Assembly (NCBI GenBank): GCA_030432565.1
Contig: JAUIGV010000004.1
Span: 124,001-188,000 of the forward strand
Source: Verrucomicrobiia bacterium
GTDB taxonomy: Bacteria > Verrucomicrobiota > Verrucomicrobiia > Verrucomicrobiales > Akkermansiaceae
Direction: 5' to 3'
Length of the DNA stretch: 64,000 nt
Shown one piece after another: positions 16,958-44,121 of this stretch. The notes under the pieces were generated by a model, which saw nothing but the letters and a program-made list of their open reading frames with translations, was not told the origin of the DNA and made no database searches. Each line of letters opens with the position of its first letter. Positions within the stretch are counted from its first letter, which is position 1. Position numbers and translations under genes: made by a program.

Positions 16958-17278
16958 CTAGCTCCCGATCTGGGTGCTCCCCTGAAGAGTCGCGCCCTCC
17001 TCCATGCTGAGGGTCTTGGTTTTGATGTCACCCTTGAGAAAAGACTTCTCCTTGAGTTCGCAGCGGTCTGAAGAAATCGTTCCTTCAACCTTACCATAAA
17101 GCTTCACCTCACCAGCCTTGATGTCGCCCTTGATGTTGGCGTTCTCGGCAATCGTAACCTTGCCCTTCTCGGAGATGATTTCCCCGTCGATTTTACCGTC
17201 AACGATCATGTCGTTTGAAAACTTGATCGATCCGTTGATTTCAATCCCTTGGGTGAGGACGTTTGTTGCGTTTGCCAT
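16958..17278 (-). CDS. Bactofilin (polymer-forming cytoskeletal protein)
   Basis: The ATG at 17278 gives a 106-residue protein that is almost entirely the bactofilin domain. Short repeated beta-strand units (I-N-G-S-I-K-F, V-D-G-K-I-D-G-E-I, A-N-I-K-G-D-I-K, L-Y-G-K-V-E-G-T) build a right-handed beta-helix. Bactofilins polymerise without nucleotides and organise cell shape, stalks or chromosome-associated scaffolds. An upstream in-frame start at 17392 would run into the divergent thiH gene and adds no domain. It is a single gene with its own terminator. Confidence 0.9.
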   Translation of the reverse strand: MANATNVLTQGIEINGSIKFSNDMIVDGKIDGEIISEKGKVTIAENANIKGDIKAGEVKLYGKVEGTISSDRCELKEKSFLKGDIKTKTLSMEEGATLQGSTQIGS

Positions 17279-17374
17279 AATGTTCGGCGCAATACACCAG
17301 TTTTGGATGCCTCTGGCAATGCCATTTTTAGGAAAGCTTTTGACAAAAAGGCCCGCAAAGAGGACCTCTCTGAC

Positions 17375-18511
17375 GTGAGTTTTGCCAGCCAATTCGAAAC
17401 CCTCATGGAGGATCCGACTCCTCTGATGCGGAGGTTTCGTAAATTACTTGACCCCTGCCCCGACCGACAGCTCGAAAGCATGGCGCGTCAAAGTCAGACC
17501 CTGACGCGTCGGCACTTTGGCAAAACGATGCGACTTTTTGCCCCGCTCTACCTCTCGAACGAGTGTGTGAATAACTGCCAGTATTGCGGATTTTCCCGGG
17601 ATAACCCAATTCTTCGCACCACTCTCACCGTCCCCCAGGTCGTCGCCGAGGCCAAACATCTTTACGATTTGGGCTTTCGAAATATCCTCCTCGTCGCGGG
17701 CGAGCACCCGAAATTCGTCTCGGACGGCTACCTTCAGGAGTGCATCGATGCCCTCAAAACACTCATCCCGACGATCGGAATCGAAGTTGGCCCGATGGAG
17801 GACGACAAATACGGGGAACTGGTCGACCACGGAGCCGAAGGGCTCATCGTTTATCAGGAAACCTATCATCAGAAAACCTACGAAGTTCTCCATACTGCCG
17901 GCCCGAAAAAGAAATTCCACTGGCGGCTCGACTGCCCCGAGCGCGCCTACGCGGGAGGATTTCGCAGAATAGGCATTGGGGCCCTCTTTGGCCTCGCCAA
18001 CTGGCGCTTCGAAGCAATCGCACTCGCCACCCATCTTGATTACCTCCTCCGCCATTGTTGGAAAGCCAGTTTCACCATCGCCTTCCCACGCATGCGGCCT
18101 CACGCGGGCAACTACCAATACACGCCTGACCCCGAGCTCTCCTTGGACGACCGCAGCCTGGTGCAGCTTCTAACCGCCTTCCGCATGTGTTTTCCCCAGG
18201 TCGGAATCGTCCTGTCAACCCGGGAGCCAGCCGATCTCCGGGACTCGCTTTTCTCTCTCGGAGTCACCCATATTTCCGCCGGTTCCCAAACAGATCCCGG
18301 TGGTTACACCGGCGCTGGAACCGACGACCTGCACCTCACACTAAAGGGTCGGCGGGTGGAACTTGAAGAAGAACAAACCTGCAGCCGGGCCACCGGACAA
18401 TTTGAAATCGATGACAAGCGGCCTGTCGACGAAATCGCCCGCATCCTCAAAAACCAGGGATTTGATCCAGTCTGGAAGGACTGGGATCCCGCGATCCTCG
18501 CAAATTCATGA
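17375..18511 (+). CDS. thiH: 2-iminoacetate synthase, radical SAM (thiazole biosynthesis)
   Basis: ThiH cleaves tyrosine to dehydroglycine, the glycine-derived precursor of the thiamine thiazole. The radical SAM cluster motif is C-V-N-N-C-Q-Y-C (C-x3-C-x2-C). G-E-H-P-K, V-G-P-M and Y-Q-E-T-Y are conserved in ThiH. The GTG at 17375 is chosen: it gives 378 residues, the usual length, and has an AGAGGA-like site about ten bases upstream. A more upstream start at 17249 would overlap the divergent bactofilin gene. The last four bases overlap thiS. Neither thiG nor thiF is beside it, so those steps must be encoded elsewhere. Confidence 0.9.
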   Translation: MSFASQFETLMEDPTPLMRRFRKLLDPCPDRQLESMARQSQTLTRRHFGKTMRLFAPLYLSNECVNNCQYCGFSRDNPILRTTLTVPQVVAEAKHLYDLGFRNILLVAGEHPKFVSDGYLQECIDALKTLIPTIGIEVGPMEDDKYGELVDHGAEGLIVYQETYHQKTYEVLHTAGPKKKFHWRLDCPERAYAGGFRRIGIGALFGLANWRFEAIALATHLDYLLRHCWKASFTIAFPRMRPHAGNYQYTPDPELSLDDRSLVQLLTAFRMCFPQVGIVLSTREPADLRDSLFSLGVTHISAGSQTDPGGYTGAGTDDLHLTLKGRRVELEEEQTCSRATGQFEIDDKRPVDEIARILKNQGFDPVWKDWDPAILANS

Positions 18512-18708
18512 ACCTCACGATCAACGGAGAAAGCAAACACTTTGACAACGGCACTACCCTGCAAGCCCTGCTGGTGGAACTGGGCCTCGCCGAAAAGCCG
18601 GTGGTCATCGAACTCAATCACAAAGCGCTCGCGCCCTCGGAGTTCGAAGCCCAGCCGCTCAGTGATGGCGATCAACTCGAAATCATCACCATCGCCGCAG
18701 GCGGATAA
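18508..18708 (+). CDS. thiS: Sulfur carrier protein ThiS
   Basis: This 66-residue ubiquitin-fold protein ends in the required Gly-Gly (I-A-A-G-G). The C-terminus is adenylated by a ThiF-type E1 and converted to a thiocarboxylate that donates sulfur to the thiazole ring. Its ATGA start overlaps the thiH stop, so the two are translationally coupled. The only E1-like enzyme in this window is the UGA-containing ThiF/MoeB-rhodanese protein at 43021, which is a candidate partner. Confidence 0.92.
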   Translation: MNLTINGESKHFDNGTTLQALLVELGLAEKPVVIELNHKALAPSEFEAQPLSDGDQLEIITIAAGG

Positions 18709-43020: not shown

Positions 43021-44121
43021 ATGCCTCTGACCCCGCTGGAAGCGAACCGCTATCTGCGACAAACCATGCTCGCCGAACTGGGCGAAGCCGGACAGGAGCG
43101 GCTCAAGAACTCTTCCATCCTCTGCATCGGGAGTGGTGGTCTCGGCTCCCCTGCTCTTCTCTATCTTGCTGCAGCAGGAGTCGGAACAATCGGCATCATC
43201 GACCCTGATAGAGTCGATCTCTCCAATCTACACCGCCAGATCGTCCACGACACCGATCGTGTCGGCACCTCTAAAATGGAAAGTGCCAAAGCACGGCTCC
43301 ATCAGGTCAATCCGCATGTCAAAATCGTGCTTCATGAGGGGCGATTCGAGCCCGACAATTGCCTTGATCTGCTAAATCTATACGATGCCATTCTCGACGG
43401 CTCTGACAACTTCCCCACGCGCTTCGCCGCCAACGACGCCGCCTTCTTTCTCAAAAAGCCCCTCATCCACGGTGCCATTTTTCAGTTTGAAGGCCAGGTG
43501 ACCGTCTTCGCGCCACACCTCGGTGGACCGTGTTACCGCTGCCTTTTACCAGAGCCGCCTCCCGACGGCGCGGTCCCGACTTGAACCGAAGCTGGTGTCC
43601 TGGGCGTGCTCCCGGGAATTATTGGAAGCCTCCAGGCGATGGAAGCGATCAAGCTTCTTGCATGCCTTGGGCAAGCTCCGCTGGGTCGTCTGATCCACTA
43701 CAGGGCTCTCTCGACCGCCTTCCGCGAGATCAAAATCAAGCGCGACCCGGGGTGCCCGCTCTGCGGAGACAACCCAAGCATCACCAAACCATTCACTGAT
43801 AAAAAAGACATGATCGAGCTCCCTGAAATCACCACTCTCGAACTCCGAAAAATTCTCGCCGAAGGCTTTGAAGGCATCCTGCTCGACGTCCGCGAGCAGG
43901 ATGAATACATGATGGCCCATATCGAGGGCTCCGAGCTTCTCCCTCTGTCAGGCTGGCCTGCCTCGGCCCACAACCTCCCAAGGGATGCCAAGTATTACGT
44001 CCACTGCGCCGCCGGAATGCGAAGCGCCAAAGCCGGCGTTTGGATGCTTCAAAATGGTTTCACCGACGTTACGAACGTCGCAGGCGGCATGAAACAATGG
44101 CTTCAGGAAGAGACACAGTAG
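43021..44121 (+). CDS. ThiF/MoeB-rhodanese E1-like enzyme with in-frame UGA (probable selenoprotein)
   Basis: One continuous frame of 366 codons is broken only by TGA at codon 188 (43582-43584). Before it lies an E1-like adenylyltransferase: I-G-S-G-G-L-G-S-P nucleotide loop, D-G-S-D-N-F-P-T-R. A C-Y-R-C pair (171, 174) and C-P-L-C (245, 248) form the zinc site split across the UGA. After it come E-A-G-V-L-G-V-L-P-G and a C-terminal rhodanese domain (about 260-366) with active loop H-C-A-A-G-M-R, cysteine 329. Homologues read G-A-V-P-S-C-x-E-A-G; here the cysteine is UGA. That cysteine is the E1 thiol (Cys184 in E. coli ThiF, and its equivalent in Uba4/MOCS3). With the SECIS-like hairpin downstream, selenocysteine insertion is the best explanation. 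A nonsense mutation or sequence error is the alternative. Likely role: activating ThiS, MoaD or a Urm1-like carrier. Confidence 0.82.
43598..43617 (+). promoter_or_regulatory. Bacterial SECIS-like hairpin downstream of the in-frame UGA
   Basis: TCCTGGG and CCCGGGA pair over seven bases (one G-U) around the loop CGTGCT. The loop begins 20 bases after the UGA and has G at its second position. This meets the published general rules for bacterial SECIS elements: loop 16-37 bases after the UGA, a short loop, and a G in its first two positions. The hairpin lies inside the coding sequence, as bacterial SECIS elements do. It was folded by eye only. Confidence 0.65.

Follow-up and report, generated by a model that had tools for sequence, protein, structure and literature searches.

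A predicted selenocysteine at the E1 cysteine of a MoeB/ThiF-type adenylyltransferase fused to rhodanese in an Akkermansiaceae genus

The stretch of verrucomicrobial DNA analysed here (64,000 nucleotides; hereafter the window) contains a gene of 366 codons plus a stop whose sole internal stop is a TGA at codon 188. Does this codon end a protein, mark a gene in decay, or stand for selenocysteine (Sec)? We consider it very probable that the gene encodes a functional selenoprotein, namely a MoeB/ThiF-type E1 adenylyltransferase fused to rhodanese with UGA-188 read as Sec, because the domain architecture, the alignment column in which the TGA falls, the Sec machinery of the host, a SECIS signature, and purifying selection upstream as well as downstream of the UGA all point to this reading.

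One frame across the UGA and the column of the E1 cysteine

Upon re-reading of the frame, both Pfam domains of the protein, ThiF/E1 adenylation and rhodanese, were found in it (Table 1). Thus, a single reading frame holds both, and the ThiF domain itself crosses the TGA, which bears out the earlier note's description of one TGA interruption in an otherwise continuous frame of 366 codons. The C-terminal rhodanese retains its active Cys, as in E1-rhodanese proteins of the MoeZ/Uba4 type, a layout that MOCS3 shares. Two CxxC pairs, presumably a zinc site, are present as expected of the E1 superfamily, and so are nucleotide-site Arg, Lys, and Asp residues, which were recognized by eye in an alignment to MoeB. 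The nucleotide-site residues named for MoeB are Arg14, Arg73, Lys86, and Asp130 (PMC13139853). Among 25 listed NCBIfam families, the only cut-off passed is that of PRK05690, the MoeB subfamily (296 bits vs a cut-off of 266); the gene misses the cut-off of the MoeZ equivalog NF005902 (371.7 vs 647 bits) as well as those of ThiF and the remaining listed families. The product resembles MoeZ/Uba4 in its ThiF-type E1, its two CxxC pairs, the position of its E1 cysteine, and its C-terminal rhodanese with an active Cys, but it scores below the NCBIfam MoeZ cut-off and is predicted to have Sec in place of the E1 cysteine. E. coli MoeB and ThiF align with it across the whole E1 part, including residue 187 or 184, although their aligned chains (249-253 residues) lack a rhodanese and carry Cys at that residue.

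Table 1. Features of the window that bear on the E1 gene and its putative substrate
Feature	Coordinates	Strand	Basis
ThiH (2-iminoacetate synthase), thiamine pathway	17249..18511	+	TIGR02351, 405 bits vs cut-off 380
ThiS sulfur carrier, ends in GG	18508..18708	+	PF02597, 45.3 bits vs cut-off 22.5; translated from ATG
Predicted Sec-containing MoeB/ThiF-rhodanese E1, 366 aa with TGA as Sec	43021..44121	+	Frame and profile searches
ThiF/E1 adenylation domain, residues 11-246	43051..43758	+	Pfam PF00899, E 6.8e-77
Zinc site, first half, Cys171 and Cys174 (CYRC)	43531..43542	+	Invariant in 25/25 Sec and 59/59 Cys rows
TGA codon 188, predicted selenocysteine at E1 cysteine	43582..43584	+	Homologue column, structure-sequence alignment
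Predicted SECIS hairpin, 7 bp stem, 6-nt loop CGUGCU	43598..43617	+	Loop starts 20 nt past UGA
Zinc site, second half, Cys245 and Cys248 (CPLC)	43753..43764	+	Invariant in 84 rows examined
Rhodanese domain, residues 274-362	43840..44106	+	Pfam PF00581, E 1.3e-15
Rhodanese active-loop Cys329 (HCAAGMRS)	44005..44007	+	Cys in 84/84 rows examined

The four-cysteine zinc site and the rhodanese active cysteine had been described in the earlier note as intact, and both are indeed invariant in the 84 rows (25 Sec, 59 Cys) examined out of 125. The residue that follows the rhodanese active Cys (44008-44010 of the window) is Lys in 51 of the 59 Cys forms, and in the 25 Sec forms it is Ala in 17 and Lys in eight; the Ala might be a compensating change or a mere lineage effect.

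Phmmer alignment to solved structures places TGA 188 opposite Cys187 of E. coli MoeB (1jw9, counted along the printed row), Cys184 of ThiF (1zud numbering), and the E1 cysteine of Chaetomium Uba4 (6yub chain A, chain position 200, taken to be the Cys202 of PMC7527816). The UGA column is thus that of the E1 cysteine, as the earlier note had supposed. In 110 loci gathered by tblastn (L021-L130) this column holds 30 TGA, 57 TGC, and 23 TGT codons; nine further fetched loci contribute six TGA, all picked for a TGA already flagged, and three Cys, and 23 additional loci from the class-wide sample are all Cys among the matches listed. After identical proteins are removed from the resulting 142 rows, 125 distinct homologues remain with 27 TGA, 68 TGC, and 30 TGT, a ratio of 27 to 98 that is no estimate of frequency since six loci were fetched for a flagged TGA. 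Two later loci beyond the 142 rows have Cys (in genome G238) and TGA (in G095). The in-frame TGA accordingly aligns to a conserved Cys of homologues, as in a selenoprotein gene. No row gathered has TAA or TAG in the column, and none of the 36 loci behind the 27 TGA homologues has any other stop inside the aligned stretch, the kind of disruption in relatives that the earlier note had named as a point against its own reading.

Selenocysteine machinery, SECIS hairpin, and selection

The host genome (5.9 Mb in 82 contigs, 97.3% complete) encodes SelA, SelB, SelD, and tRNA-Sec, so that all of selA, selB, selC, and selD, which the earlier note had proposed to look for, are in place. The matches reach 489 bits for selA, 315.6 bits for selB (cut-off 242), and 54.4 bits for tRNA-Sec (cut-off 47), the last also called by ARAGORN with anticodon tca. 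The selD match (387 bits; L018:1480-2532) has an in-frame TGA of its own at codon 18 (LASCGG(U)ASK), and therefore its product is probably a Sec-containing selenophosphate synthetase. The tRNA-Sec gene lies elsewhere in the genome: ARAGORN found no tRNA inside the window, and an Rfam search across its 64 kb returned nothing above gathering scores. A selA match is present in all 18 sampled genomes in which Sec-MoeB was seen vs 95 of the 288 genomes sampled in the order, an association that is given no p-value because congeners are not independent; in G124 the match is a fragment at a contig end and falls under the cut-off. Similarly, tRNA-Sec scores above its cut-off in 17 of these 18 genomes, the exception being G277, vs none of four controls that lack a selA match; two of these controls reach 46.8 bits, just short of the cut-off of 47. 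In G178, a 79% complete genome with selA in which no MoeB-type E1 was found, no tRNA-Sec scores above the cut-off.

One may argue that a near-cognate or reassigned tRNA inserts Cys or some other residue at the UGA, given that the homologue residue is Cys. This reading is very improbable in view of the full Sec system with its tRNA-Sec, the codon constraint downstream of the UGA (see below), and the 10 of 36 mechanically listed ORFs of at least 300 aa in the window that end in UGA, which is thus apparently still a stop.

Downstream of the UGA, the predicted hairpin (-10.4 kcal/mol, with G second in the loop and a spacing of 20) fits the bSECIS consensus as given in PMC13188914, namely a loop of 3-9 nt, a stem of 4-16 bp, G in one of the first two loop positions, and a spacing of 16-37 nt. 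Codons 195-197 read GGC GTG CTC in all 19 Sec-clade rows, though every synonym of these three codons occurs among the 66 Cys rows with more than 52% identity. Synonymous diversity at codons 193-199 is the lowest of 101 codon windows in the 17 Sec-clade rows of full length (without L065 and L066, which contig ends truncate), and the same codons rank 22nd of 50 and 28th of 78 in two sets of Cys rows (21 and 20 rows, 17 of them shared). At least six of the seven hairpin pairs are formed in 19 of 19 Sec-clade rows vs none of those 66 Cys rows (66 of 98). Fold-energy z-scores, computed on 54 nt from the UGA with 100 mononucleotide shuffles each, do not tell the two gene forms apart (mean z -0.45 for Sec vs -0.36 for Cys), and hence the case for a SECIS rests on codon-level constraint and register-specific pairing. 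We read the bSECIS rule with its -7.5 energy cut applied to the hairpin alone; taken in this way, it accepts 16 of 27 Sec rows and also 17 of 98 Cys rows. In the Sec-clade row L027, no hairpin satisfies the limits that the rule sets on stem, loop, G, and spacing. Two distant Sec lineages, in which only 57% of cells are paired in the hairpin register of the clade studied here, form other hairpins of allowed geometry, with a spacing of 20 (-7.5 to -8.2 kcal/mol) or 32 (-6.8 kcal/mol).

The hairpin also bears on a second alternative, in which the UGA terminates a short protein and the second half restarts, for example at GTG 43606, to give two subunits. The mechanical ORF list does divide the gene at the TGA and includes a GTG-started ORF at 43606-44121, and gene callers that take UGA as a stop would likewise split Sec-MoeB genes in two. 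Nevertheless, the invariant GTG sits in the hairpin loop, so its conservation is otherwise explained, and such a split would cut the ThiF domain within its length. In addition, all 27 distinct homologues that have a stop have it at the Cys column and as TGA, never as TAA or TAG, and every one of the 18 TGA genomes tested has a selA match. Two separate subunits are therefore hardly to be expected, about as little as a reassigned UGA.

Selection was compared in three segments of the gene in the Sec clade, with 136 pairs per segment from which saturated pairs and pairs with too small a dS were left out. Ahead of the TGA the median dN/dS is 0.087 (99 pairs); from that codon onward it is 0.146 for the remainder of the E1 part (121 pairs) and 0.105 for the rhodanese (106 pairs), values that are rough because dS is high and near saturation. 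These ratios indicate that the sequence following the UGA is translated and under constraint. A pseudogene with a nonsense mutation at the cysteine codon would account for the in-frame stop, but not for low dN/dS on both sides of it, a TGA in 27 distinct homologues with no other stop in the aligned stretch of 36 loci, or the position of the gene as the only MoeB/ThiF-type E1 found in three of the 11 genus genomes; this explanation is less probable still than the two above. Least credible of all is a single-base sequencing or assembly error, for although the analysis used assembled sequence, the TGA recurs in MAGs from many different accession series. Homologue column, Sec machinery, codon-level SECIS, and conservation across species thus converge on Sec at the E1 cysteine, as the earlier note had proposed.

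Distribution among Verrucomicrobia and the history of Cys and Sec

From a larger group, 288 genomes of the order were sampled, of which 11 belong to the genus. All 11, the host included, carry the TGA, each time at codon 188. Among the matches listed, a TGA is also found in three genomes of another genus of the same family (G221, G249, and G277) and, within a second family of the order, in four genomes (G104, G124, G164, and G095), and it occurs as well in the named loci L071 and L086. Outside the order, the distribution is that of the matches listed from a class sample of 384 genomes and of the best 80 of 520 relatives, and in the latter the nearest named relatives are Verrucomicrobiota, Akkermansiaceae, or Verrucomicrobiales MAGs. 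A search of a plasmid collection (426 records) gave relatives only below 60% identity.

Both forms occur in the genus of G221, G249, and G277, with a TGA in loci L131-L133 of three genomes and a Cys codon in L171 of a fourth member, G238, and G238 still has selA and tRNA-Sec. A single origin of Sec was considered and rejected, since a quick tree requires three or more changes of the Sec label, two of them forced by starred branches. Thus, the history of Cys and Sec is not one simple gain, and gains and losses cannot be told apart on this tree, in which several branches are long. One contig labelled Pelagibacteraceae (locus L074) groups deep among the Verrucomicrobia rows and probably belongs to a mislabelled or contaminated MAG.

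Selenium in the activation of sulfur carriers

What would a selenol do at this site? By homology, the E1 domain would adenylate the C-terminal Gly-Gly of a ubiquitin-like sulfur carrier (ThiS and/or MoaD), and a persulfide on rhodanese Cys329 would be the sulfur source. Sec188, on the crossover loop, might accept the acyl group as a selenoester, similar to the thioester at Uba4 Cys202, or, as the main alternative, might resolve an acyl-persulfide as a selenenylsulfide, with release of the carrier thiocarboxylate. In Uba4, Cys202 is reported to bind Urm1 as a thioester, which gives way to an acyl-disulfide by means of the persulfide on rhodanese Cys397; Cys202 is also reported to protect against oxidative side reactions (PMC7527816). 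In E. coli, Cys184 of ThiF and Cys187 of MoeB are reported to form no thioester (PMC13139853). The selenoester at Sec188 is therefore extrapolated from Uba4, and the catalytic role of the residue is to be taken as putative. The earlier note had assigned to this cysteine the attack on the adenylated carrier, which agrees with the thioester reported for Uba4 Cys202 (PMC7527816) but not with what is reported of E. coli ThiF and MoeB (PMC13139853).

Further matches to the E1 part in the host are only two: L164, a TcdA-like protein whose best match is NF011696 (272 bits vs a cut-off of 304), and L163 (1486-2220, minus strand), a MoeB-like protein of 244 aa beside a PF13531 solute-binding protein and a PF00005 ABC ATPase. 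We take PF13531 to be the family of the molybdate-binding ModA. A second MoeB-like E1 of the L163 type is present in eight of the 11 genus genomes, and in all eight the E1 cysteine of the crossover loop is missing; if active, such an E1 would have to work without it. In the remaining three, G267, G268, and G275 (91-96% complete), no second MoeB-like E1 was found. Since the other MoeB-like E1 has no such cysteine, the Sec enzyme alone, among the MoeB/ThiF-type E1 proteins found in the genome, would have a nucleophile at the E1-cysteine site, and its selenol is probably the only MoeB/ThiF-type E1 nucleophile there.

Two carriers come into question. The ThiS frame in the window overlaps the end of the thiH frame (Table 1), and ThiS is a likely substrate of the Sec E1. 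Elsewhere in the genome, a gene on the minus strand (L169:1498-2421) fuses a MobA-like domain to a C-terminal domain of the MoaD/ThiS family that ends in GG, and is followed by moaE. We infer that ThiS is the first candidate for the carrier served by the Sec E1 and MoaD the second, because L163 may serve MoaD if its neighbours import molybdate. A broader proposition would make Sec188 the obligate nucleophile of the only MoeB/ThiF-type E1 of the genus capable of a covalent adduct, with Se adducts to both ThiS and MoaD, Se-dependent synthesis of thiamine and perhaps of the molybdenum cofactor, and a trait arisen more than once from Cys in Verrucomicrobia; we advance it tentatively and as a whole think it rather doubtful.

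Selenoproteins related to this one have been reported before. MoeB with a UGA codon was introduced in 2005 as a new family of selenoproteins with 11 Sargasso Sea sequences (PMC1088965), 19 sequences were reported in the 2008 GOS survey (PMC2398784), and reviews mention the family with MBT7809913.1 as an example (PMC9312934, PMC13188914); these 11 and 19 sequences bear out the earlier note's mention of UGA-containing MoeB-like genes in marine surveys. Hence, with the family listed since 2005, the Sec-MoeB described here is no new class. It is similar to published Sec-MoeB in being a MoeB/COG0476 homologue with an in-frame TGA, there in marine bacteria. The comparison is by description, as the published accounts, in the parts consulted, give no host lineage, cysteine identity, or context; what differs here is an Akkermansiaceae genus with the trait throughout its sample, further Sec lineages, a mapped E1 cysteine, and codon-level SECIS evidence. 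Among the open-licence papers listed, none deals with the host lineage or mechanism of Sec-MoeB, as judged by titles and the first part of abstracts. As far as the literature was searched, what is new is the fixation across the sampled genus, the recurrence in further lineages, the SECIS evidence at codon level, and the apparent lack in this genome of any other nucleophile in a MoeB/ThiF-type E1.

Selenoproteins of known function are described as mostly oxidoreductases (PMC2398784). With Sec at the reactive site of an E1-like activating enzyme, selenium would take part in acyl or sulfur transfer to ubiquitin-like proteins. Furthermore, E. coli MoeB and ThiF are reported to form no thioester at the E1 cysteine and Uba4 to form one, and with Sec-MoeB nature provides a way to examine whether this residue works covalently in bacterial sulfur-carrier E1s. 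If the proposed role holds, synthesis of vitamin B1 or the molybdenum cofactor would be selenium-dependent in this lineage.
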